A DNA stretch of 59,555 nt from a virus. Under the pieces are notes generated by a model, which worked only from the letters and a program-made list of their open reading frames with translations, had not been told where the DNA came from and searched no databases. Location of the stretch: positions 1-59,555 of IMG/VR virus record IMGVR_UViG_3300033571_016888. One strand, 5' to 3'. Of the stretch, positions 2,563 to 58,054 are shown one piece after another. Each line of letters starts with the position of its first letter. Position 1 is the stretch's first letter. Position numbers and translations under genes: made by a program.

Positions 2563-2745
2563 TTAAGAATCATAATCGTCATAATCTCGGAACGTGGATT
2601 CATTACGATTCCAGCGTTTGAGTCCAGAAATTTTGTATTCCTGAAATCCTTCATCATATTCAAGGTCTTGAATTGATGCGTTTTGGCGTAGCTCAGAAAG
2701 GCTTCCAGGTTGAGATTTGTTTCCTTTACGAAATGTGCGTCCCAT
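2563..2745 (-). CDS. Small hypothetical protein
   Basis: A 60-aa protein with a basic N-terminus (MGRTFRKGNKS) and an acidic Tyr/Asp C-terminus (FRDYDDYDS). The charge split suggests a small binding or adaptor protein, but nothing is recognisable. It sits between a terminator on its 3' side and the 54-aa acidic gene, inside which a good promoter points at it. Function unknown. Confidence 0.65.
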   Translation of the reverse strand: MGRTFRKGNKSQPGSLSELRQNASIQDLEYDEGFQEYKISGLKRWNRNESTFRDYDDYDS

Positions 2746-2754
2746 AGTTAGTAA

Positions 2755-2919
2755 TTAGTCTGCGTAATCGAAAGTGTAATCGTAATCGTAGTCGTTAGAG
2801 AAATCATCATAGGACTCTTCATCATACTTGTCAAGTCCTTTTTTACGGTAAATGGAATCAAGTTTGATTTCATCCCGAATTTCATCTAGAATTGACCCTC
2901 GGTAACTCAGGTAAGCCAT
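2755..2919 (-). CDS. Small acidic hypothetical protein (start at 2919)
   Basis: A 54-aa protein starting MAYLSYRGSILDEIRDEIKL and ending in a strongly acidic Asp/Tyr tail. The frame is open to 2973. I chose 2919 because the longer start lies inside the promoter (2945-2973), while AGGA sits about 8 bases before the 2919 ATG. The acidic tail could mimic nucleic acid or block a DNA-binding host protein, but that is speculation. Confidence 0.65.
   Translation of the reverse strand: MAYLSYRGSILDEIRDEIKLDSIYRKKGLDKYDEESYDDFSNDYDYDYTFDYAD
2806..2834 (-). promoter_or_regulatory. Internal sigma70-type promoter before the 60-aa gene
   Basis: Minus strand TTGACA (2829-2834), 17-base spacer, TATGAT (2806-2811), inside the 54-aa gene. 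It matches the other early promoters in sequence and spacing. It could instead be a by-product of the Asp/Tyr-rich coding sequence (GAT/TAT codons). Confidence 0.4.
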
Positions 2920-2944
2920 GATTGAATCCTGTCGAACATGTAAT

Positions 2945-2973
2945 AATATATATGAGGCTTGGTGAATTGTCAA
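2945..2973 (-). promoter_or_regulatory. Sigma70-type early promoter
   Basis: Minus strand TTGACA (2968-2973), 17-base spacer, TATATT (2945-2950). It lies in a true intergenic gap and points at the 54-aa gene starting at 2919. Confidence 0.75.
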
Positions 2974-2998
2974 GGGGATTGGACATTAGTAAATTTTA

Positions 2999-3145
2999 TC
3001 AGTCCAATAAATGAGTTTGATTTTTCAAATCAGTATCTGCAATATGTATCATAAGAATAATCTTATTGACTAACATTTGCAGTTCTTTGAGTTGGATTTC
3101 CAGAATTTCTATTCTGTCGGCCAACTCTGGCATACTGCTATCCAT
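2999..3145 (-). CDS. Small coiled-coil hypothetical protein
   Basis: A 48-aa frame (ATG at 3145, TGA at 2999-3001) beginning MDSSMPELADRIEILEIQLK. Leucine and isoleucine recur at heptad spacing over most of its length, so it should form a short coiled coil. It overlaps the 3' end of the 50-aa gene (3109-3261) by 37 bases in another frame. There is no Shine-Dalgarno that I trust, and the function is unknown. Confidence 0.5.
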   Translation of the reverse strand: MDSSMPELADRIEILEIQLKELQMLVNKIILMIHIADTDLKNQTHLLD

Positions 3146-3261
3146 TCGTCAAATTCCTCTCCAATTGAAATTGCATCTTCATACCGACCTTCTTCAATAA
3201 GGTGTTGAAACCTATCACATCGGTCTTTTAGAATGTTATCTAAAATTTTTGTTTTATTCAT
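3109..3261 (-). CDS. Small hypothetical protein, 50 aa
   Basis: The frame begins at the ATG at 3261, overlapping the stop of the zinc-binding gene as ATGA (3258-3261), and ends with TAG at 3109-3111. The peptide begins MNKTKILDNILKDRCDRFQH and looks like one or two amphipathic helices with an acidic second half (EEGRYEDAISIGEEFDEW). The junction strongly suggests translation. Function unknown. Confidence 0.65.
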   Translation of the reverse strand: MNKTKILDNILKDRCDRFQHLIEEGRYEDAISIGEEFDEWIAVCQSWPTE

Positions 3262-3530
3262 AGAACTTTACCCCATTTTCCGATGGGACAAGAACCTTGA
3301 CGAAGTTTAGTTTTTGCAGACATAAAACACCCACAACGTCTACATTGAGTGGTGTTAGAATTAAAATCATCACAATTTCTGCAAATTGACATTCTCATTT
3401 GCTGAGTTTGTTCGGGAACAAATACTGGTTTTCCTTTAGAAAAATCAGATAACGAATCTGATACTGTTTCAGTAAGACCTTTTAATTTATCTAAAAGTTC
3501 TTGCTTAATTTCATCAGAGAAATTTTTCAT
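3258..3530 (-). CDS. Zinc-ribbon-like small protein
   Basis: A 90-aa protein with a helical N-terminal half and a Cys-rich C-terminal half. Cysteines are at about 50, 53, 63, 66, 68 and 81 (CRNC...CRRCGC...C), a typical small zinc-ribbon arrangement. Proteins with an ICRNCD...QCxxCGCFM pattern are common in cyanophages but have no assigned role; a nucleic-acid or protein-binding adaptor is likely. It is joined to the upstream gene by a TGATG overlap at 3530 and to the downstream one by ATGA. Confidence 0.75.
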   Translation of the reverse strand: MKNFSDEIKQELLDKLKGLTETVSDSLSDFSKGKPVFVPEQTQQMRMSICRNCDDFNSNTTQCRRCGCFMSAKTKLRQGSCPIGKWGKVL

Positions 3531-3860: not shown

Positions 3861-6698
3861 TTAAGCTTGAGCTTCTGTCCAGGATAATCTTGCATTAATT
3901 GTTGCTGCAGTAGCCCCAAGATTTCTTGCAGTAACTGTAACAATATCTGGACCATCTGGATATATATTTGCGGTTCCTGTTGGATGAGCTAATGAGTTTC
4001 CACCACCCAAGATAGAGTTACCTAAATCTCTAACTAGATTTAATTCTTTTGTAAGAATTCCATTAGTTACAAAGAAAGAATAAATTGGTTCTCCTCCAGT
4101 AATAGTTGTTCCAGCTGTATGCAAACACAACTGAGAAAGTGATGAGCCACCAGCTGAAGTAAAGTTTGTTGCCACAGAAGATCTTCCATTAAGAACTATA
4201 TTAATCAAAAAAGTTCCAGCAGAAAAAATACCAACTTCACGAAGAGTTAATTGCATTCGATTAATCAATTCTCTTTGTCCTAAAATTCCAGTAAATCCAG
4301 AATCTACACTTGGAGCCAATCTAACTGAGAGAAGAGCATTTGTAACCGCAGAATTAACAGATAATGAATTAACCATTCCTGCAGTAAATAGGAATGATTT
4401 ATCATCATCATATCTTCCATCCATGATTACTGAAGACCCCCAGTGGCCAACATTTGCTGCAGTTTGTGGAGAATGCAATTCTACTGAAATTGGTGCGGTT
4501 GCACTAAATGTAAATGTTGCTGCAGTTCCTGTACCACCACCTCCTGTTAATCCTCCAGGTCCAGTTAAATTAGTAACTGCTCTACTAAGGCCAGTTAATG
4601 TTGTTGCTGTTTTTCCAGTATAATTTACATATTCTATTACAGCTCCAGTATTTCCAGCTGCACGAATCATAACTGTTCCTGAAGATGGAAATTCAGATGT
4701 GTCATTAACAGTCATAGACGTAGTATTTGTGTTTGCAAGAGTTGCTGTTAGATAAGTAATTGGAGGAATTGTATTACATTCGTATCTTGCAGGTAAGTTA
4801 CCTGAACGCATATATGCTTCAGTTCTATAATTAGCGTTTGCAATTCTATGTCCATATATAATTTCACCTCGTTGATTTTTAAATCCAAAACGAATTGCAC
4901 CTGCTCCATACCAAGAATAATCTATATAAAGCATCTGCATTTTTGTTAAATCAACATTATATCCAGAATATCCAGTTCCATCACACCTATCAATATTCCA
5001 TTGAGTTTGTGGAATTCTTTGTTGAGTCCTCTTGGTTGCAACAATTTTTCCTCCAGAAATTGTAGTTCCTTTATATTCTGGGGAAACAAATAATTGAGTA
5101 TTACTTGCAATTGAAATAACAATATAACTCATTCCACGAATAGTAATATAATCTCCTGGTTTTAATTCAGATGAAAATTTAGTTGCAGTTCCTGTGATTG
5201 TTGCTGATCCATTTGTTACAGAAACTCCTCCAGAAAGTTGATCTGTACTAGATCTTCTTACAGCATAAAGTGTTTGCCCATCATATTCATAGAAAAATCC
5301 ATTTTGCTCATCAAACATTCCAATACGAATTTTAGCACCATACCAATTTGTTGGAGAAATTGTAATTGGAAATCCAGTGGCTGGGGTAGCAGAAGGAGTT
5401 GATAACGCAGTATATGTAAACGTTAGTTCTCCAGTAATTGTTGCTACAGCGAATGTTCCATTATATGCAGATTGATCTGCTCCAGAAACAGTAATTGTAC
5501 ATCCTGGTCCTAAATTATGGGGAAATTTGGTAGTTACAGTTACTGTTGTTGTAGAAGATGTTATATTATCAATTTGAATAGCTGGTTTTAAATTAGTTCC
5601 TGTACTAAATTGTACTCCTTTACCAGATTGATATCTGAAATATCTTCTAGTTTGACGAATAAGTTGATTACCATGATATGGAGTACCTGCAGAAAAGCTT
5701 ACTCCACCATCAAAAGCTCTATGAATTGAAGTAGCATATGGTCTAGGATATAAATTTTGACTTCCTCCAGTTGCGGTTATAGTTCCAGTTGGAGCAAGAT
5801 CCACATCAAATGTAAATGTATTAGATGTAGGAACAGTCTTTACAAAGAATGCTCCATTGGGTGGGTTTGTAGTTGCACTAGTATCTTTGACAAAAATTCC
5901 ATCTCCAACTGATAACCCGTGTGCATTAGTAGTTGTGCAGGTTACAAGTGTTCCGACGTTTGTAAATGCAGCACCAGCAGTTGCACTTACTGGAATTTGA
6001 GATCCAGTAAAAAATGATCCTATAAACAAATAAGTTTTAGATGCATCTAAGATAGAACCATTTGTTACGTTAGCTCTAGCAACATAAGTAAAATTAGTAT
6101 TTAATGTAACAGCTTCAATTAATTGCCATCCATTTGCAATTGCATCTGTTGTATCTTGTACAAATATTGGTGTTCCTACAGTAAGTCCAGTTGTATTTGG
6201 TAATGCAACTGTAACTGTTCTAGTATCAGCTCCAGTAATTGCCGTTATTCCTGTGATAGGTGCAGTAGCATCATAAAACACAGATGGTTTATTATTTAAT
6301 AAAGCTGTTGTTTCCCATTTTGTTGGCTGTGTTCCATATTCAAAGTCAGTATCAATTAATGCCTGTGGGGTGGACACACGCATTTTTCCAACTGGATCCA
6401 TGTAGGTTTCCGATGGAGAAAATTTCTCATCATATTCATCAACTATAATCTGAAGTTTATCAGTAGAACTCATTCCAGAAGTAGAATATGATAAAACTAA
6501 AGTTGTAGTATCTAAGGTTCCACTTACTGTATATGACGTTGCTTTTAAATTAGAATCTGAAAAATTATAGATTACCGTATTTGTAGTTACATTAGTAATT
6601 AAAATTAATCTTTCCCTTGGAATAGCACGAGGAATTACAATAGTATTAGTTGAGGGAGTAAATGTATAATAAGTTTCAAGTATTGCCTTTCTTGACAT
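3861..6698 (-). CDS. Virion structural protein, adhesin or tail-fibre type, 945 aa
   Basis: A 945-aa, Thr/Ser/Gly-rich, beta-structured protein. The N-terminal part (YTFTPSTNTIVIPRAIPRER) resembles a segment I associate with cyanophage virion proteins. Two short beta modules also occur in other fibre genes of this window: an HGLSVGDGIFV module at about residue 256 and an AYNGTFAV module at about residue 414. The C-terminal 200 residues contain a further beta domain. It is the last gene of the fibre cluster, with its own late promoter (6740-6747) and an AGAGGA ribosome site before the ATG. Likely role: host-surface attachment at the baseplate or whiskers. Confidence 0.8.
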   Translation of the reverse strand: MSRKAILETYYTFTPSTNTIVIPRAIPRERLILITNVTTNTVIYNFSDSNLKATSYTVSGTLDTTTLVLSYSTSGMSSTDKLQIIVDEYDEKFSPSETYMDPVGKMRVSTPQALIDTDFEYGTQPTKWETTALLNNKPSVFYDATAPITGITAITGADTRTVTVALPNTTGLTVGTPIFVQDTTDAIANGWQLIEAVTLNTNFTYVARANVTNGSILDASKTYLFIGSFFTGSQIPVSATAGAAFTNVGTLVTCTTTNAHGLSVGDGIFVKDTSATTNPPNGAFFVKTVPTSNTFTFDVDLAPTGTITATGGSQNLYPRPYATSIHRAFDGGVSFSAGTPYHGNQLIRQTRRYFRYQSGKGVQFSTGTNLKPAIQIDNITSSTTTVTVTTKFPHNLGPGCTITVSGADQSAYNGTFAVATITGELTFTYTALSTPSATPATGFPITISPTNWYGAKIRIGMFDEQNGFFYEYDGQTLYAVRRSSTDQLSGGVSVTNGSATITGTATKFSSELKPGDYITIRGMSYIVISIASNTQLFVSPEYKGTTISGGKIVATKRTQQRIPQTQWNIDRCDGTGYSGYNVDLTKMQMLYIDYSWYGAGAIRFGFKNQRGEIIYGHRIANANYRTEAYMRSGNLPARYECNTIPPITYLTATLANTNTTSMTVNDTSEFPSSGTVMIRAAGNTGAVIEYVNYTGKTATTLTGLSRAVTNLTGPGGLTGGGGTGTAATFTFSATAPISVELHSPQTAANVGHWGSSVIMDGRYDDDKSFLFTAGMVNSLSVNSAVTNALLSVRLAPSVDSGFTGILGQRELINRMQLTLREVGIFSAGTFLINIVLNGRSSVATNFTSAGGSSLSQLCLHTAGTTITGGEPIYSFFVTNGILTKELNLVRDLGNSILGGGNSLAHPTGTANIYPDGPDIVTVTARNLGATAATINARLSWTEAQA

Positions 6699-33664: not shown

Positions 33665-33748
33665 TAGGAGCGGGGGGACTCGAACCCCCACGGTCATACG
33701 ACCAGCAGATTTTAAGTCTGATGCGGCTACCAATTACGCCACGCTCCC
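33665..33748 (-). tRNA. tRNA-Leu (anticodon TAA)
   Basis: A class II tRNA on the minus strand. The acceptor GGGAGCG pairs with CGCTCCT (first pair G-U) and the discriminator is A. The anticodon loop CTTAAAA gives TAA. The variable arm is GGTC-loop-GACC, and the T arm is GGGGG TTCGAGT CCCCC. CCA is not encoded. It reads the UUA codon, common in this AT-rich genome. Confidence 0.93.
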
Positions 33749-36862: not shown

Positions 36863-38212
36863 TTAACTTCCTAAATTAGTTTGACCTGTTGATGGAACTA
36901 CATCTGGAATATTATTCCCACCAAAAGAATCTCTAGCTAAAGTTATAGTAGTTCTTAGTTCAGTTCTATTTAGGATAGTATGCCTAACGGAATGTACTAG
37001 ATACTTTCCACTAATTCTTTTATCTTCCTGTACACTGCCATCAGAATTTCTTTTTGGAGATGGAATAGAAACGGATATTGTGTTGCCCGCACTAATTTTT
37101 AAATCTCCTGGAATAGTTATTTCTAATTTATTATACTCTAAAAAGTAATATCTATAAATTGATTTTTCATAAGTTTTATTCACTTGATCTATATTTTTAT
37201 CTTCGGTATCATCAATTTCTTTCCAACCAAATGTACTTAGTGTAGTTGGTCTATAAATTATTCTTGTTGGGAACTGCAATACTTTATCTTCACTATCCAT
37301 TCTAAATGGTTTTAAATTATCTAAATGGTTCATATCATTCCAATACTTTGCAGCGTTAGTATTAAATACTCTATAAATTCTATTGTTTATATCTACATAA
37401 ACAGATCTATGGCAAAAAGCACCATTCCTTAAATCTTCAAAAATATCAAAAGCTTTTGGGGATGAATAGTTTAATATTCTATAATTATTTTGAGTAGTTC
37501 CTTTAGCACCAGTATTACCTTGAGCAAAAGTATATTTTGTGTTTGCATTTGGGTATGTTGGTTGATGATATAAATTATCTATAGATTTAAATTTAAATCC
37601 ATCAAAAGTCTCAAAGAACAAATATCCAACTGAGTTTTTATACGCTGTAGGAACACTCCTTCTAGCCATCCATATTGCAGTATCAAATATTCTCCAGTTA
37701 GGTACATACATGTTAAATGGATATAATGTCTCATCAGCATCAACTTTTTTCTTAGTAAAAATTCCTCCATTTGCAGTTCTTGCAGTCATTTGTTGGGTTA
37801 TAAAATCATGAGATTTTATCCCATCAACTCTTTGCATAATTCTAGTAGACTCATTATAAAGAGCTTCCAGACTTACCAAATGAATTACATATGCTTGATT
37901 TTTCTCCTGCATCACACGACCATCAATTTTAAAGATATAAAAATTTAAATCATAATCAGCAGTAGACGTAGAAATTTCAAGTTGAATTCTCTCTTGACCC
38001 ATTAAAGGTAAAGAGCTAATAAGGTTCTCTGCAATATCAGTTACAACAATCTGACAATAAAGACTAGCAGAAATTACACTTTCATAAATTGAAATTTCTT
38101 GAACTAATTCTTTAATATCAAAATACTTATCTTTGGATGGAGTTCCTTCGATAACAATTGGAAATAGTTTTACAGTTTTTAGAGAAAAATCTCCAGAAAA
38201 TTTTGCTTGCAT
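36863..38212 (-). CDS. Baseplate hub protein, gp27-like
   Basis: A 449-aa protein. Hub-type features are ELVQEISIYESVISASLYCQ near residue 40, a beta-rich core with VIHLVSLEALYNESTRI near 105-125, and C-terminal strands (DLKISAGNTISVSIPSP, KYLVHSVRHTILN) like the end of the late-control-D/gp27 family. It should form the trimeric collar on which the gp5 spike sits. Neighbours are gp5 (via the CP12-like gene) and the paralogous tail lysin proteins. Its start overlaps the stop of the 947-aa gene as TAATG. Assignment is by pattern and position, not alignment. Confidence 0.7.
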   Translation of the reverse strand: MQAKFSGDFSLKTVKLFPIVIEGTPSKDKYFDIKELVQEISIYESVISASLYCQIVVTDIAENLISSLPLMGQERIQLEISTSTADYDLNFYIFKIDGRVMQEKNQAYVIHLVSLEALYNESTRIMQRVDGIKSHDFITQQMTARTANGGIFTKKKVDADETLYPFNMYVPNWRIFDTAIWMARRSVPTAYKNSVGYLFFETFDGFKFKSIDNLYHQPTYPNANTKYTFAQGNTGAKGTTQNNYRILNYSSPKAFDIFEDLRNGAFCHRSVYVDINNRIYRVFNTNAAKYWNDMNHLDNLKPFRMDSEDKVLQFPTRIIYRPTTLSTFGWKEIDDTEDKNIDQVNKTYEKSIYRYYFLEYNKLEITIPGDLKISAGNTISVSIPSPKRNSDGSVQEDKRISGKYLVHSVRHTILNRTELRTTITLARDSFGGNNIPDVVPSTGQTNLGS

Positions 38213-41055
38213 TATAGTCTACTATGAAGGTAACTGGAAGAACTATCAAGATATGCAAATGAAGTATTCATACTAGGTGTATTTTGTGGTAATGGTCCTA
38301 CTACATTTACTGTACTTGCTATAGTAGTTGGAGGAGTTATAATATATGTATCTGAGCTGTATGCAGTTGTAATCATTTGTTGAGTTTGAATCATATCCAT
38401 ACTACTACGTTGCAATGCAGCTCCATTAGTTTTTGGAGTTCCTGTCAATCCTTTATATAAATCAGATAGATTTTTTGTAATCTCTCCCCAAGAAACTTCT
38501 GGAGTTCCAGTATCACTTGCAGGGGATTCTTGATTTTGTGAAGGTACGTCTGATGGCTGAATTCCTTGACCTCCAAATGTAAAGTGTCCCCCATGATCTC
38601 CAGGACCACCATATGGAGCCCAGTTCCATCCATACTTTCCACCATTCTTTTTAATCCATTCTTTTGAGGACCCATGAATATCCATGCCAATTCCATATAA
38701 ATGTTTGGATCTTGTGGCTCCACGCACATCAGTATTCTTTTTAGGGCTTCTCTTACTACTTGCAATATCAGTTCCTTTAACTACTCCACCAGAATCTTTC
38801 ATCATTTTTGCAAATCCAAAAGCAGCATCCCGAGAGAATACAACTGGTCTTCCATTTACATCATTAGTACCTTGTATTGTATATCCAGGACCAGTATCTG
38901 GATGTCCTTGAGTAGCAACTACACCTCCAGTTTGGTATCTATCTCTAAACCAATTTCCTCCATCTGGTCTTCTTCTATCGTTTCCCGTAACTTTATATCC
39001 CATAAAATACTGAGAACCACCAACAAATTTCTTTGCATTTTGTGATAGTGGTCCATTCTTTTCAAAATCAGATAATACCTGAGCTGCAACTTTAGGATTA
39101 CCAGCTTGGAATCTATTTGTTAATTGTTGAATTCCGTCTGACTTTCCTGCCAAATCAAACAATTCTTTTTTAGTTAACCCAAGTCCTCCATATTTTTTTG
39201 ATGCTGCATCATCAGCACTACCACCATATATTGCAGCAGAATAAGGAGAAAATTGTTCTTTTGCGGTAATAACAGAAGGAATACCTCCACTTTGTCCAGC
39301 AGCTCGATTTAAAATTACTTGATATACATCAGCGACATGTTGAGGTGCAGATGCTTCAAGTGTAGCAAGGTGTGCGGCAGCTCTTTTATCTGCAGATGAA
39401 GCTTTAATGGCATCCAATTCTGCCGCAGTCAATGCTTGATCTGCACCGCCACCGCCACCGCCTCCCCCTGGCGTAGCAGTTCCAGAATTAAAATCTAAAT
39501 TAATTATGTTATTGAATATATCTGCAAGTAATTCTCTAATACTATTTCCAGCATTATATCTAATCTTTTTATCAGATTTTTTATCTCCTAATAAGTTTAC
39601 TTTTTTATTTTTTCCAACAATATCATTTAATTTTGTATCATCTCCTTCTTTAGCACTAGCTTTCGTTGTTAATGTGGCAGCATCTATTACAGTGTTTCCT
39701 AACTTAGAAGAAAATGTAAATCGTTTGATACCAAAATCTCTAACAAAAGGTGCAAATAATTGTTGAGCAAATGGTCTTATAATATTACCAACTGCTCCCA
39801 TAGAAAATAATACTGCATTAATACCGCCAATCAAAGACGATGCTAATACTGCTAATGGAGCAGAAAATATAGATCCAGAAAATAGTTGTGGTAATGGAAT
39901 TACTGCCTCAGGACCAGCTTCCCCAATTATTGCTTTAGTTGGTTGAGTTACAATACCTCCTACTGCTAACTGCGGAGTATTTTCTTCTTTCTTATTAAAT
40001 AATCCTTTCACCCATCCATATAATTTATCTGCAGCCCAATCTCCTAGTAATCCTCCTAAAGCTCCACCAATTATAGTTCCTGGTCCTGGGAATGCGGATC
40101 CTATCAATCCACCAAGACCCATTCCTAATGCAGAACCTGCAGCCTTTACAATGGCCTTATCTATTGGATCTCCTAAAGCTAAATTAATTCCGAGATCTAA
40201 TAAAGGTCCTACAATAGGAATACCCTTTACAGTTGTTTTTGCAAAAGTTTTAATTGGACCCAGTATGATATTTTTTACTGCTCTAAAAGCAGGTCCAAAT
40301 ATTTTTGATAATAATCTAACTCCACCTTTTCCAAATACCTTTAGTAGTCCTCTTGTAATTCCTCTGGTTAATCCTCTTTTGAAAACTTCTGCAGTTTTTG
40401 GAAGAGTTTGTAATAATTTTTCAGACCCTTCTTTTATTCCAGCTTTTCTAAAAGAGGTAAATACATCTAATATTTTACCACTATTTTTTATAACAAATCC
40501 TAAATCTTTAAACAGTTTTCCAGGACGCAGTAAGTATCTAAATCCAAGAAGACCTACTACTAATTTAAAAAATCCTAAAAATCTTTCTAATAAAGTTTCT
40601 CCAAATAAAACACTATGCAATCCACTAAATGCATTGTCTATAGTTCCAGTCACAAACCAGCTAAGGAAATCAAAAATTCCCTTTAATGCTTTAGTAATAG
40701 CTAAAACTTTTTTCTTATTCTCTGGTTTCGATACCCATTCTACTACTTTATACGTAATAAAAAATTGTAATAAATCAAATAAAAATGATCCTAATCCAAC
40801 TGCTTTATTCCTTACAAATCTTTTAGCAGATGATTTTAAAGATAATTTTTTCTTAGATTCTTGAGAAGACTCTCTTTCTTGTAGTTGTCTTTTCTCTAGA
40901 GATTTTTGCTCAAGTTTATATAAACGTTTCTCTAACAAAAATCTATCTCTTTTATGTTCATATAATTTTTTAGACAAAACATTTATGGCTTTAAGTTCTT
41001 TAAGCCTTGCAGGTACTAAAAATGGAGATGGTTTTATTGGTGAAGAAATAGCCAT
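38212..41055 (-). CDS. Large tail protein with SleB-like hydrolase and M15-like peptidase domains
   Basis: A 947-aa protein. The N-terminal 130 residues are coiled-coil and basic, ending VVEWVSKPEN. Glycine-rich hydrophobic segments and the GGIVTQPTKAIIGEAGPEA motif (about 365-385) typical of tape-measure proteins follow. A region at about 555-720 resembles cell wall hydrolase SleB (VYQVILNRAAGQSGG, ITAKEQFSPY). A region at about 725-826 resembles an M15 D-Ala-D-Ala peptidase (SKHLYGIGMDIHG, then HGGHFTF) with the metal-binding His and Asp. The C-terminus has EVSWGEITKNLSDLYKGLTG. It probably serves as a tail structural protein that also opens peptidoglycan at infection. Confidence 0.8.
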   Translation of the reverse strand: MAISSPIKPSPFLVPARLKELKAINVLSKKLYEHKRDRFLLEKRLYKLEQKSLEKRQLQERESSQESKKKLSLKSSAKRFVRNKAVGLGSFLFDLLQFFITYKVVEWVSKPENKKKVLAITKALKGIFDFLSWFVTGTIDNAFSGLHSVLFGETLLERFLGFFKLVVGLLGFRYLLRPGKLFKDLGFVIKNSGKILDVFTSFRKAGIKEGSEKLLQTLPKTAEVFKRGLTRGITRGLLKVFGKGGVRLLSKIFGPAFRAVKNIILGPIKTFAKTTVKGIPIVGPLLDLGINLALGDPIDKAIVKAAGSALGMGLGGLIGSAFPGPGTIIGGALGGLLGDWAADKLYGWVKGLFNKKEENTPQLAVGGIVTQPTKAIIGEAGPEAVIPLPQLFSGSIFSAPLAVLASSLIGGINAVLFSMGAVGNIIRPFAQQLFAPFVRDFGIKRFTFSSKLGNTVIDAATLTTKASAKEGDDTKLNDIVGKNKKVNLLGDKKSDKKIRYNAGNSIRELLADIFNNIINLDFNSGTATPGGGGGGGGADQALTAAELDAIKASSADKRAAAHLATLEASAPQHVADVYQVILNRAAGQSGGIPSVITAKEQFSPYSAAIYGGSADDAASKKYGGLGLTKKELFDLAGKSDGIQQLTNRFQAGNPKVAAQVLSDFEKNGPLSQNAKKFVGGSQYFMGYKVTGNDRRRPDGGNWFRDRYQTGGVVATQGHPDTGPGYTIQGTNDVNGRPVVFSRDAAFGFAKMMKDSGGVVKGTDIASSKRSPKKNTDVRGATRSKHLYGIGMDIHGSSKEWIKKNGGKYGWNWAPYGGPGDHGGHFTFGGQGIQPSDVPSQNQESPASDTGTPEVSWGEITKNLSDLYKGLTGTPKTNGAALQRSSMDMIQTQQMITTAYSSDTYIITPPTTIASTVNVVGPLPQNTPSMNTSFAYLDSSSSYLHSRL

Positions 41056-41056
41056 C

Positions 41057-44000
41057 TTATGGAGTTGCAGGGAATACAGTTAAAGGTGTGGGAGGAATAG
41101 TATTTCCAAGAGCTGGAGCTAAAGTTTCAACCTGAGTTTGATTGATTACATTAGTTCCTTGAGAAAGACTGACTACATTACCTCCAGATGGTTTTGTTGT
41201 AGAAGCTTGTTGTGTTGCTTTATTTTGATTTGAAGTTTGTTGTGCTTGTTGTAATCTAGTAGATGATGAAGGAATAGATGTGGTTGGAGCAGGAGCAAGA
41301 GGTAACGTAGGAGCAGGAGGAATTGTTTGAGAAGGAGTTCCAGTTAAACCTTTATATAAACTTCCTAAACTCTTAGTAATATCTGCCCAAGAAACTTCAG
41401 ATTCTTGGGTTTCTGAAGTAGATCCAGGACCACCACCTACAGTACCAGTTCCTCCTAATCTTACTCCTGCTGCAAATGTCTGTCCTCCAGAACTAGTGTA
41501 CATACTAGCTTTTCTAAATCCAGCTGATCTGCCATGATGCCAAAGATCATTTCCTTCTCCTTTAATACCAACGTGAGTAATAGCCCCAGAAGGATAACCA
41601 TTTCCTCCTTTCCACAACACAACATCACCAGCCTGCAATCCTGAAGTATTTTTAATAATAGATCCCATATCACTTCCTGCAAAAGATGCAGCAAAATTAA
41701 CTCCATTGTATTTTGTTCCTTCTGCGTCTAAATCCCCTTTCTGAGTAACCTTTCCTGCATCAGGATGTCCAGCAGCTCTTAATGCAGCTCTGGTGGTTGC
41801 GGCACACATATTACCTTGTCCCTTTCCCATTCCAGCTATTTTTTTCGCACCTTCTAATATTGCTGCTCCTCCAATTTGAAGCATTCTTGTTCTTGGTCTT
41901 CCATCACCACTTGCTTTTTCTTCATTTCTTTGAATCTGTGCAATTTTAGATGTACCAAATCTAGGATGAAGATTGAAATTTAAAGGATCTAAAACCTTCG
42001 GTCCACCCATAGCTTTAACTAAATTTTTATTCAATACATACTCTTCTGGTTCAAGTAATGCAGGCTGTTTATCTCCAATACCAGAGCCCTTTACTCTACC
42101 ACCACTATTAAATTTTGCAGGTTTTCCATAAATTCCTTCAGTTGGAGCTTCCCAAACATCCGAACCAGATGTTCCTTTGGGTCCTTTCGTAGGTCTAGAT
42201 TTTAATACTTTACCTACTGCATAATTATACATTCCAACTGCAGTTTGATCTCCACCAAACAATCCTTTTAGAATTTTAACTTCTCCTGTGCTAGGAATTC
42301 TTACTAATGGACCTCCTAAAGTTTTTGAATCAAATAATTTAGTTGATGTAATATCTGTTAAAGGATCTCCTGGTTTTTCCCATTTAAATACATTTCCAGT
42401 AGCATCATACCAATACTTTCGGTTTCCATTAATTACTGCTTTTAGACCACCTCCAGGAGAATATTCTTTTCCTCCCCTACCCTTGTCTATAAAAGTACCT
42501 TGAACTCCTTTCAGAGTTCCATCCTCTCGCAATCCACCAGCCTTTTTTATTGATTCTTTTGCATTGTCCGTGGCAGTTGCTGTACCTGCTCCTGGAGGAG
42601 GACTTGAACCACCAGTACCAGAAGGAGATCCACCAGAAGGAGATCCACCAGAAGGTGAAGGTGTACTTGGTACTGGTTGATCTGAATTTTTACTTGCCAA
42701 TGCTCCCAAAATATTAGCAAGCAATCCTCTAACTGAAGTATCGTTTGATGGGGTAAATTTTCCTCCCTTTTGTTTTGATACTCTAGGAGAAGTATCCCCA
42801 AACAATTTAGATATATTACTAGCTCCTCCCTTTACTGCTTCTATTGGATTTTTTACAAACTTGGATACTCCTTTAACTATAGAAGGAGGAATGCCAAAAG
42901 TGGAAGCAATACTAGAAATCAATGGCAGCATCAATGGTCCGATGCCAGGAATTACTGCTAATGAAGATGACATTAATGCAATAATTCCAGCACCAACTAA
43001 AGTGAAAGGAATCGTCAACATCTTCATAAATTTAGGAATTATTTTTCCTACATCTGATTCAATACCTTTTCCTGTAAATGAAGTTAATTTATCTAAAGGA
43101 AGAATTGCTTCTGGTCCAGCTTCTCCTACTATTGCTTTAGTAGGTTTAGTTACAATACCACCTTTTGCTAATTTTGGAATTTTTTTATCTTCTTTTTCCT
43201 TTTCCTTGGCAAGATCTCTTGCTACCAATGCTGCGTCAATACCTATTGATGCTGCAGTTCCCCATCCAGGTAACAAAGAAGCTACACCAGATGCAGCCTC
43301 CATCCCAGCTCCAACCCAATCACCTTTAGATGCTCTATCTACTGCAAAGATTCCTCCTGTGACTGCTCCTATAACAGGAAGTTTTTTCAGTAACGACTTA
43401 CCTGCACCCTTGGCTGCTCCCTTTGCGGCACCTTTTGCTGCGACTGCTCCTGCTCCTTTTGCAGCACCCTTAGCAGCACCCTCTGCTGCTGCTTTGCCTC
43501 CAGACTTTGCTGCCTGCTCTGTGACCTGTCCTGCAGCGGTTTTAACAGCTTCTGTTCCTGCAGCAGCTGCTCCTTTCAACCCTTCGTTTACTGCAGTATC
43601 TACAGCTTGTGTTGCAACTGAAGGTATTAAATTAGTAAAGAAATTTAATACTCCATTAATTGCGTTCGGAATTATTTTTGTAAATAATGTCCCGATCATT
43701 TTAATATCAGAAATTATTTTGGTCGGATTCAATAACCACTTTAAAGTGAAGAATCCAACGATCATTTCAAGAGCGCCAAATACTCTTGTAATTCCACCAC
43801 CATCAACTAAATGGCTAAGACCTGACATTATTTTGTCAACGCCAAATCCTACAACGTTGCTAATAAATTTAAATATTCCTACAAATAATTTAGCAAAGTC
43901 TTGAATCTTTTTTAAATTTTCTGGTTTTGATACCCACTCTACAATTTTATATCCAATAAACCATTTAAATAAATCTCCAAAAAAGCCAACAAGTCCGTCA

Positions 44001-44368
44001 AGACCTTTCATGGCTCCTTTTACAACAGGATTAACTTTTGCTTTCTTTTCTGTTTTATCTTTGGTTTCTTGTGAAGATTCTCTCTTTTTAAGTTTTGTTC
44101 TTTCTTCTGATCTTGCAAATTTTATAATTTTATCACCAAGAAAATCATTATACTTTTTTTCGATGGCAACCAACGAAACTAAATTCTTTTTAATGGAAGA
44201 TAATTCACCTAACTCTGCAGCAGAAAATGCTCCTGGTGTTGACATTCCAGGAGCACTCATTACAGCAGTACTTGAAGTAAAAGCTGATTGATTAATATAA
44301 GAGGATTTTAATTTTTGACCAGTTAATGCTTGGCCAAATGATTTCATTGAAGGTTTGAGTTGTGCCAT
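41057..44368 (-). CDS. Large tape-measure-like tail protein with NlpC/P60- or CHAP-like domain
   Basis: An 1103-aa paralogue of the adjacent 947-aa protein. It shares the basic coiled-coil N-terminus (RESSQETKDK), the IVEWVSKPEN segment, GGIVTKPTKAIVGEAGPEA (about 401-420) and a C-terminal EVSWADITKSLGSLYKGLTG. An Ala/Gly/Lys stretch lies at about 285-330. The lytic module differs: residues about 839-976 have a Cys (MCAATTRAAL, about 853) and a His (AITHVGIKG, about 929) arranged like NlpC/P60 or CHAP peptidases. It is directly downstream of gp26 and its frameshifted extension, the classic place of a tape measure. Confidence 0.8.
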   Translation of the reverse strand: MAQLKPSMKSFGQALTGQKLKSSYINQSAFTSSTAVMSAPGMSTPGAFSAAELGELSSIKKNLVSLVAIEKKYNDFLGDKIIKFARSEERTKLKKRESSQETKDKTEKKAKVNPVVKGAMKGLDGLVGFFGDLFKWFIGYKIVEWVSKPENLKKIQDFAKLFVGIFKFISNVVGFGVDKIMSGLSHLVDGGGITRVFGALEMIVGFFTLKWLLNPTKIISDIKMIGTLFTKIIPNAINGVLNFFTNLIPSVATQAVDTAVNEGLKGAAAAGTEAVKTAAGQVTEQAAKSGGKAAAEGAAKGAAKGAGAVAAKGAAKGAAKGAGKSLLKKLPVIGAVTGGIFAVDRASKGDWVGAGMEAASGVASLLPGWGTAASIGIDAALVARDLAKEKEKEDKKIPKLAKGGIVTKPTKAIVGEAGPEAILPLDKLTSFTGKGIESDVGKIIPKFMKMLTIPFTLVGAGIIALMSSSLAVIPGIGPLMLPLISSIASTFGIPPSIVKGVSKFVKNPIEAVKGGASNISKLFGDTSPRVSKQKGGKFTPSNDTSVRGLLANILGALASKNSDQPVPSTPSPSGGSPSGGSPSGTGGSSPPPGAGTATATDNAKESIKKAGGLREDGTLKGVQGTFIDKGRGGKEYSPGGGLKAVINGNRKYWYDATGNVFKWEKPGDPLTDITSTKLFDSKTLGGPLVRIPSTGEVKILKGLFGGDQTAVGMYNYAVGKVLKSRPTKGPKGTSGSDVWEAPTEGIYGKPAKFNSGGRVKGSGIGDKQPALLEPEEYVLNKNLVKAMGGPKVLDPLNFNLHPRFGTSKIAQIQRNEEKASGDGRPRTRMLQIGGAAILEGAKKIAGMGKGQGNMCAATTRAALRAAGHPDAGKVTQKGDLDAEGTKYNGVNFAASFAGSDMGSIIKNTSGLQAGDVVLWKGGNGYPSGAITHVGIKGEGNDLWHHGRSAGFRKASMYTSSGGQTFAAGVRLGGTGTVGGGPGSTSETQESEVSWADITKSLGSLYKGLTGTPSQTIPPAPTLPLAPAPTTSIPSSSTRLQQAQQTSNQNKATQQASTTKPSGGNVVSLSQGTNVINQTQVETLAPALGNTIPPTPLTVFPATP

Positions 44369-44371
44369 CTA

Positions 44372-45264
44372 TTATAATGACTGCGTTGTTTTTTGTCTGT
44401 TATTTTCGTCTTCAATATAATCAATTAACATTTGAACATAAACTTCTCGTTCCCATGGTATCATTAATTCTAGCTCACTTAGATTCCACTTATGATGTTG
44501 TATCAATATAAAATTAATTCTAAAATAATTTTCTAAGGTTTCATGAGCTAGGGCTATGCGAAAAAACTTGCTAGACCTTCAATTACTACATCACTTGTAA
44601 CATCAGTATTTGGATTTGTCACTTTAATAGTGTGAGAAAGTTTTGGCATAGTTTCAAAAAACTGTTGAATTTTTAAGAACTGTGCCGTGTCTAAGCTATC
44701 AAGGAAATCATTAATTTCTTTTTTAGAGAAACTCTTGGTTTCATATACATCTTCACCTTCTACAACCTGCTCAATACAAGATGCAGCAATTTCAAATACA
44801 TCTTCTGCAGTTCCATTAGAAGAAAGATTAGTCTTCACAAAAGTTTCCATACTAGGATATTTCATGACTACAGACACCGAATCATTCAATTCAATAATTC
44901 TATTATGATCTTTTGATTTTTGTACCTTAATATCTTCTACATTAATTTTAACTGGAACCACAGTTTGATTATCATCTGGACATGGAACATTTAATTCAAT
45001 TTCTTCTCCAACAGACTTTGCACGAATATTTAAAAATAGATACTCGATATCAAATGTTGCTAAATCATCTACTTTAATTTTTGAAGAAATGCAGTTCTTT
45101 AAAATAGTTTTCACTGCATTGGTCATTTGTTTTTCATCTTCAGATTCCATAGCAAGAAGAAGAATTTTTTCTTCTTTTACTAGAAATGGTCTATATTTAA
45201 TTGTATCTCCAGTTGAAGGAAGTTCCAACTCATATGTTGGGGCAACTAATTTTGGTAAAGGCAT
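44372..45264 (-). CDS. gp26 -1 frameshift product (gp26-extended)
   Basis: The zero frame of gp26 ends at TAG 44554, but an overlapping -1 frame continues for 62 codons to TAA at 44372. The overlap contains the canonical slippery heptamer TTTTTTC (44560-44566, read T TTT TTC). The extension reads RIALAHETLENYFRINFILI and ends with a conserved-looking MIPWEREVYVQMLIDYIE helix. No ATG or plausible start precedes its well-formed part, so frameshifting is the simplest way to make it. The product would be about 297 aa. This mirrors the G/G-T tail chaperone pairs that precede tape-measure genes in many phages. Confidence 0.6.
44554..45264 (-). CDS. Baseplate hub / tail assembly protein gp26
   Basis: A 236-aa protein of the T4 gp26 family: the start MPLPKLVAPTYELELPSTGD, the KYRPFLVKEEKILLLA segment, and a middle region with ILKNCISSKIKVDDLATFDI and LFLNIRAKSVGEEIE are hallmarks. 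It acts in hub or tail assembly in T4-like phages. Its late promoter is at 45293-45300. The last residues, ..GLASFFA, lie on a T6 run where a -1 frameshift can extend the protein. Confidence 0.82.
   Translation of the reverse strand: MPLPKLVAPTYELELPSTGDTIKYRPFLVKEEKILLLAMESEDEKQMTNAVKTILKNCISSKIKVDDLATFDIEYLFLNIRAKSVGEEIELNVPCPDDNQTVVPVKINVEDIKVQKSKDHNRIIELNDSVSVVMKYPSMETFVKTNLSSNGTAEDVFEIAASCIEQVVEGEDVYETKSFSKKEINDFLDSLDTAQFLKIQQFFETMPKLSHTIKVTNPNTDVTSDVVIEGLASFFA
44560..44566 (-). other. Slippery heptamer for -1 ribosomal frameshift
   Basis: TTTTTTC on the minus strand, in frame as T TTT TTC, two codons before the zero-frame stop. It fits the X XXY YYZ rule exactly. I did not find an obvious strong stem just downstream. 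Confidence 0.6.
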
Positions 45265-45306: not shown

Positions 45307-46149
45307 TTAGATAATTGTTTCTATGCTTCCTTGTACGGTTCCATTATTATGGGCACTTGTAACTGCAGTCTCATATTCAAATGTAACTTGCACTTTTACA
45401 ATTTCTGAAGCACCACTAGAAAGTCCGATTGAAGAAATATTTGTAGGGAATGCATTCATTAATCGTACAGAATATAATGGTTTTGCTTTTTCAAAATTAC
45501 TTATATTCTCCTGTAAAGATTTTGGTTTATAATCTGGAATTATGTCAGTAGATTTCATATATGTTCCAGATCTTTCTAAATCACTTAATATAGTATTACC
45601 TTTACTAGTAACCTCAAATTGATTAGCTTTTTCAAACTTGACAACTAAAATATCAGTAACATATTCATCTCTATATCTAGTTCTGCCTAAATTTTGCTTG
45701 CGATTTACATTTAAAACTCCTGATGTAGCTTGTCGTGAATTTGGAACATTGTGTGCATAGATATAACTTTGCCATGCATCAAAAGTTTTTCTAATCTCTG
45801 AATTTGCATCCCCAATAAATGAAAATGTAATTTCATTATTTACAATTCCATATGCATATTTTAATTGGGGAGAATTATTAATACGATATTCTCCTGTGGA
45901 AATTTGAAATCCTGGAATAGAACATTCTTCTGCATAGAATCTCATCAATCCAGTCATGTTGGATGGATCATTGGCATTTGGCTGACCACCCCCAGGAACT
46001 CTTTTGAGTATATTATTTAAAACTCCAGTGGAATTGGTTAAGTCAAAATGAACATCATAAAAGTTATTAATACTGTATCCAAATTTAGATACATAAGACT
46101 TGAACTCTTTAAGAGTTCCAATATTTCTATCAAAAGCTCTAGTTGTCAT
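45307..46149 (-). CDS. Baseplate tail-tube initiator, gp54-like
   Basis: A 280-aa protein with the tail-tube fold layout of gp48 and gp54. It has a strand-rich core with FYAEECSIPGFQISTGEYRI, then YGIVNNEITFSFIGDANSEI and FDAWQSYIYAHNV, and ends with AFPTNISSIGLSSGASEIVK then VQVTFEYETAV, the usual tube-protein closing strands. It overlaps the upstream 200-aa gene as ATGA (46146-46149). In T4, gp54 sits on gp48 and starts tube growth. The choice of gp54 rather than another tube-fold protein is by elimination, as gp48 is at 47219. Confidence 0.6.
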   Translation of the reverse strand: MTTRAFDRNIGTLKEFKSYVSKFGYSINNFYDVHFDLTNSTGVLNNILKRVPGGGQPNANDPSNMTGLMRFYAEECSIPGFQISTGEYRINNSPQLKYAYGIVNNEITFSFIGDANSEIRKTFDAWQSYIYAHNVPNSRQATSGVLNVNRKQNLGRTRYRDEYVTDILVVKFEKANQFEVTSKGNTILSDLERSGTYMKSTDIIPDYKPKSLQENISNFEKAKPLYSVRLMNAFPTNISSIGLSSGASEIVKVQVTFEYETAVTSAHNNGTVQGSIETII

Positions 46150-57134: not shown

Positions 57135-57216
57135 TGGGCAGGGAGGGATTTGAACCCCCGTAGGCAGAGCCAGTGGATTTACAGTCCACCTCCATTAACC
57201 ACTCGGACACCTACCC
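57135..57216 (-). tRNA. tRNA-Tyr (anticodon GTA)
   Basis: A class II tRNA. The acceptor GGGTAGG pairs with CCTGCCC, discriminator A. The anticodon loop CTGTAAA gives GTA. The variable arm is GGC-TCT-GCC and the T loop is TTCAAAT. CCA is not encoded. Confidence 0.93.
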
Positions 57217-57953: not shown

Positions 57954-57971
57954 AATTAAAGTATGAACAAG

Positions 57972-58054
57972 CGGAGAATAATAGAATCGAACTATCAGGC
58001 TATTAACCTGGCATCGTTTTCAAGACGATTTACCGACCATCGGTGCTATTCTCC
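57972..58054 (-). tRNA. tRNA-Ser (anticodon TGA)
   Basis: A class II tRNA. The acceptor GGAGAAT pairs with ATTCTCC and the discriminator is G, as usual for serine. The anticodon loop CTTGAAA gives TGA. The variable arm is CAGG-loop-CCTG. Its 5' 25 bases overlap the 3' end of the HNH gene on the same strand. Confidence 0.93.

Follow-up and report, generated by a model that had tools for sequence, protein, structure and literature searches.

Most tailed phages require both a short and a long tail-assembly chaperone. In phage lambda the slip takes place on GGGAAAG, and the gene order resembles the tail tube, chaperone, tape measure order of the present locus. In P2, E and E+E' (PF10109) belong to a contractile tail and are linked by a -1 slip on TTTTTTG, with the tape measure gene T next. 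Vladimirov, Gautam and Davidson (2022, Virology 566:9-15, PMID 34826709) reportedly identified the tail-assembly chaperones of T4-like phages, which, going by the title and by citing papers, exist in a short version and in a longer one that is a fusion; the genes concerned are presumably 26 and 51, which is our reading and not a quotation. The lambda products G and G-T arise as a short and a long form via a -1 slip, and the tail-chaperone frameshift was described in a review of 2016 as widely conserved, T4 excepted (PMC5009743). A passage of the PRFect paper citing Vladimirov et al. describes some T4-like phages that have, in place of frameshifting, one short gene plus a longer one for the fusion (PMC10885494), and one of the phage Adele paper cites the same authors for poly-T slippery sequences in the chaperone genes of T4-like phages (PMC12846349). 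Going by Vladimirov et al. as represented in these two papers, the kind of arrangement described here is thus known and the present locus is a new member.

The window analyzed here is the whole 59,555-base virus record IMGVR_UViG_3300033571_016888, which belongs to a marine T4-like phage. As in lambda G/G-T, a -1 slip would occur near the 3' end of a gene lying ahead of a tape measure gene, and its products would have a common N-terminus; the contractile tail, poly-T slip site and following tape measure gene are shared with P2. We consider it very probable that a -1 ribosomal slip on T TTT TTC, at the end of gp26, yields a short gp26 and a long gp26-51 chaperone.

The slippery heptamer and the reading frame beyond it

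The 3' end of gp26 reads ...GCA AGT TTT TTC GCA TAG, so that the heptamer T TTT TTC lies in X XXY YYZ register two codons 5' of the stop, as the original prediction stated. Its further claims are likewise borne out: a -1 frame runs on for 62 codons past the slip to a stop at 44374-44372 (minus strand), none of ATG, GTG and TTG occurs in the window's -1 frame ahead of the conserved part of this extension, and the 1103-aa gene starts 3 bases beyond the extension's end. Slipped ribosomes would read ...SFF and then RIALAHETLENYF..., adding 62 new residues to give a product of 297 aa, with SFF-RIALAHETLENYFRINFILIQHHKWNLSELELMIPWEREVYVQMLIDYIEDENNRQKTTQSL as the reading across the junction. The -1 frame opens just 25 nt upstream of the gp26 stop. 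The 41 called genes of the window (18,226 codons) contain 121 in-frame X XXY YYZ heptamers, among which TTTTTTC occurs once; only the gp26 heptamer is followed by a -1 reading of at least 20 codons past the stop of its own gene. The gp26 site with its long -1 reading is not due to chance.

Table 1 Features of the gp26-51 locus in the window (positions of the 59,555-base record).
Feature	Position	Strand	Remarks
Tail tube protein gene, directly upstream	45307..46149	-	PF23849 1.8e-11; phrog_45 4.6e-31
gp26 zero-frame gene, 236 aa	44554..45264	-	PF12322 and phrog_150 profile matches
GAAGGT, weak form of the SD-like element, 9 nt 5' of heptamer	44576..44581	-	GAGGG in most relatives
Slippery heptamer T TTT TTC	44560..44566	-	Invariant in 67/67 non-redundant relatives
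-1 frame extension, 62 codons and stop	44372..44560	-	phrog_634 match; aligns with T4 gp51
Predicted stem, 5' arm CUAGCUCA	44544..44551	-	Begins 8 nt past heptamer
Predicted stem, 3' arm UGAGCUAG	44470..44477	-	Same 97-nt fold
1103-aa tape-measure-like gene, directly downstream	41057..44368	-	phrog_10093 tape measure match

The extension matches phrog_634 (2.1e-26, positions 56-116 of 121), a family of short 'gp51' genes labelled 'baseplate hub assembly catalyst', and is thus what databases and annotators call gp51; searches of Pfam, NCBIfam and PADLOC with it yielded no match. It was found in 525 phage records. GenBank phage records with gp26 include 377 from Synechococcus, 61 named 'Cyanophage' and 24 from Prochlorococcus, and those with the extension 376, 61 and 24, respectively. 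In records holding both, the extension match starts at the last gp26 codons among the matches listed. Divergence in the -1 frame amounts to 0.30, 0.18 and 0.48 at the three codon positions, and this third-position excess is the signature of a frame under purifying selection. Taken at the sequence level, it is almost certain that slipping extends part of the gp26 made by these 62 residues.

Conservation of the heptamer and its surroundings

A close set of 67 non-redundant relatives (<95% nucleotide identity) was assembled. These loci are related and not independent of one another, and formal probabilities are therefore not quoted for heptamer conservation. A look for relatives lacking the slippery run left the frameshift reading standing: the two Phe codons are TTT then TTC in 67/67, although in the rest of these genes 76% of Phe codons are TTT, and the base 5' of them is always T (67/67; 42 expected), although the amino acid encoded there varies between Ser, Asn, Ala and Asp. 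The codons flanking the heptamer vary among the 67 relatives while the heptamer stays invariant. Distant relatives keep T6C, T6T, T6G or T6A in nearly all cases, and such runs are found together with the extension in Vibrio, Pseudomonas, Stenotrophomonas, Aeromonas, Sinorhizobium, Rhizobium, Agrobacterium, Methylophilales and Xanthomonas phages, the majority of their extensions being matched by phrog_634. A search for stop codons in the -1 frame had the same outcome, with about 60 codons open in nearly all relatives; in the close set only L017 and L022 read short, each of them stopping near a contig end. A heptamer before the zero-frame stop and conserved -1 coding past it, two hallmarks of -1 frameshifting, are both present.

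Stimulatory elements, i.e. an upstream SD-like element and a downstream structure, are present in most relatives, and are weaker and different in the window. The fifth codon before the first Phe codon (Glu) is GAG in 53/67 relatives against a background of 0.30, yielding GAGG or GAGGG about 9 nt upstream of the heptamer; the window has GAA. In most relatives a local covarying stem can form from about 8 nt after the heptamer. The best evidence for it comes from one pair, in which the third base of an Ala codon covaries with the middle base of a Glu/Ala/Val codon (GCT-GAG 17, GCG-GCG 16, GCA-GTG 10). Across 63 distinct rows, 80.2% of cells pair compared with 73.3% after shuffling, and both-sided changes affect 38 cells compared with 14. 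Neither the observed pairing nor the both-sided changes were reached in any of 500 shuffles, and slid versions of the stem scored far lower. It should be noted that RNAalifold reported no structure on the gapped alignment and that the stem appeared with ungapped columns. The window itself lacks this local stem. The 97 nt after its site are predicted to fold into the long-range stem of Table 1 (z -2.19; 5/200 shuffles equally stable), and this stem was not seen in the nearest relative, L001, and is therefore lineage-specific or due to chance. Two tRNAs were the only Rfam matches. The tRNA genes of the window, all on the minus strand, are Leu (TAA) at 33665-33748, Tyr (GTA) at 57135-57216 and Ser (TGA) at 57971-58054.

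T4 genes 26 and 51 and the probable identity of the chaperones

The gp26 protein matches PF12322 (T4_baseplate) over positions 2-219 of 219 (2.1e-75) as well as phrog_150 (1.7e-83). In T4, gp51 has 249 aa, of which PF12322 covers residues 1-201 only. The fused gp26-51 matches T4-type gp51 end to end (hhalign 3.4e-23), gp26 alone matches it up to residue 201 (8.7e-14), and the extension alone matches profile positions 207-253 (1e-9). The extension had no hhalign match to T4 gp26, and no matching extension was found at the end of T4 gp26 in any frame. In this alignment T4 gp51 is colinear with the predicted frameshift product, i.e. gp26 domain plus extension. One PF12322 gene is present in the frameshift phages checked and two are present in T4, RB43 and Pet-CM3-4. 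Because of this colinearity and these gene counts, T4 gp26 can be likened to the short form and T4 gp51 to the whole fusion, and the reading of gp26 as the short tail-assembly chaperone (TAC-N, the analogue of lambda gpG) and of gp26-51 as the long one appears well supported. The extension would accordingly form the C-terminal domain of the long chaperone.

Unlike the single frameshift gene of the window, T4 genes 26 and 51 are separate and divergently transcribed. In RB43 (L112) the gp51-type (2001-2744) and gp26-type (2737-3294) genes lie in tandem on one strand with an 8-nt overlap, in contrast to the divergent T4 pair. A tree of 46 proteins separates the frameshift type (support 100/98) from T4-type gp51 (100/99). 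Most simply, a duplication or a loss turned one of the two arrangements into the other; with midpoint rooting only, the topology does not fix the direction.

The gene order is tail tube, gp26-51, tape-measure-like, which together with a short and a long form is what characterizes tail-assembly chaperones. The 1103-aa protein matches the tape measure family phrog_10093 (8e-7, residues 382-444) and carries a GEAGPEA motif; in RHph_I1_18 the tape measure is annotated for a later gene in the same run. The window genes at 38212-41055 and 41057-44368 (minus strand) are adjacent tape-measure-like paralogues that align with 31% identity over 464 columns (E 1e-35); GEAGPEA occurs in both, and the 947-aa protein weakly matches M15 peptidase. 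By sequence, gp26 had no match in the PDB. Its AlphaFold2 model is confident (pLDDT 87), and PDB fold searches with this model and with a T4-type gp51 model returned nothing significant; for gp26 the top probabilities among the matches listed were 0.25 and 0.18 (3fgx and 2ob9, E above 2), the HK97 chaperone 2ob9 reaching E 4.5-6 at probability 0.18. No Pfam match to PF10109, the P2 E/Mu 41 family, was found in gp26-51. Comparison of P2 E and E' with gp26 and the extension gave a best hhalign E of 0.045 over 13 columns from a shallow P2 alignment; P2 E differs in showing no profile similarity to either part, and in being less than half the length of gp26. The lambda system differs in slipping on GGGAAAG, and no sequence relation of G/G-T to gp26-51 is claimed. 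As no significant link to known chaperone families emerged, the function is read from position, short and long forms, and the literature. The original prediction saw a G/G-T arrangement in a T4-like baseplate gene; the arrangement stands, with site, extension and adjacent tape-measure-like gene, and gp26 is best read as a tail-assembly chaperone itself and not as a baseplate part borrowing the chaperone trick.

We infer that most ribosomes would translate gp26 (236 aa) to its own stop, and that a minority, with Phe-tRNA on TTT and TTC, would slip back one base at T TTT TTC and read the 62 further codons of the 297-aa fusion. In many relatives the slip may be aided by the SD-like GAGG about 9 nt upstream and the stem about 8 nt downstream. 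The gp26 domain common to both forms would coat the tape-measure protein, whose gene comes next, and the extension on the rare long form would recruit tail-tube subunits. In T4, gene 26 would supply the short member of this pair and gene 51 the long one.

Alternative readings, exceptions and implications

Most GenBank records annotate a separate gp51 CDS, and gp51 might be a small gene of its own, translated from its own start or by ribosomes that reinitiate past the end of gp26, in which case the slippery run would be incidental. An in-frame ATG that could serve it lies 2-8 nt past the start of the gp26 stop in 52/68 loci. However, this nearby ATG has no SD at the usual spacing, in the main clade it sits inside the 5' arm of the stem, and a start codon (ATG/GTG/TTG) before the conserved core is missing altogether in 13/68 loci, among them those of the window, P-HM1, Melnitz and Milchi. 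Annotated starts vary from phage to phage and trim conserved residues: the 'gp51' CDSs of D479 and C48C1 (L098 and L099) start within the conserved extension, losing its first third or more, and in Aeromonas phages G2 and Ah1 (L092 and L245) the extension is present with gp51 unannotated. A separate gene, which would also leave the invariant heptamer and the fused T4 gp51 unexplained, is considered highly improbable. A change of frame by RNA polymerase instead of the ribosome would suit the T7 or T8 runs of some relatives (phiM7, C48C1, Melnitz), but T6 followed by C is what the window and almost every relative carry, and polymerases usually need a longer run than T6 to slip. Tandem tRNA slippage agrees with the conserved X XXY YYZ register, with the synonymous T in front of it and with the stem downstream, making polymerase slippage barely credible.

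Some loci depart from the arrangement. In L243 and L246 (Ackermannviridae PhaxI and phi1_175010) and in L094 (Vibrio phage D495, which has its nearest gp26 counterparts in these two phages), the extension with its MPWHL motif is kept in the -1 frame after gp26, and no X XXY YYZ heptamer was found at the gp26 ends. These heptamer-less, Ackermannviridae-type extensions count against the frameshift reading. In L029, from base 4001, gp26 and extension share one open frame, which was also counted against it. Compared with L044, two bases are deleted at its slippery run, either in reality or through an assembly error, which creates the single frame, and no second gp26/extension copy is present in the 236-kb record; L029 had looked like an exception without the site, a reading rejected because the deletion fuses both parts.

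Returning to ribosomal slippage, a more elaborate and rather doubtful version would combine a dnaX-like three-part signal (GAGG, T TTT TTC, and a stem at about 8 nt covarying through a synonymous base) with a different recoding event in the Ackermannviridae-type relatives, where the extension would be reached without a tandem heptamer or clear start. Neither the SD-like element nor the covarying stem turned up in the literature examined, in which Vladimirov et al. 2022 is represented by papers citing it; together with the taxonomic spread they may be additions to the known picture. Being strongly conserved, the site would be well suited to a reporter test of frameshifting in cyanobacteria. A standing mis-annotation is corrected, in that the small 'gp51' gene annotated in hundreds of genomes of cyanophages and related phages most likely represents the 3' part of gp26, read after a frameshift.
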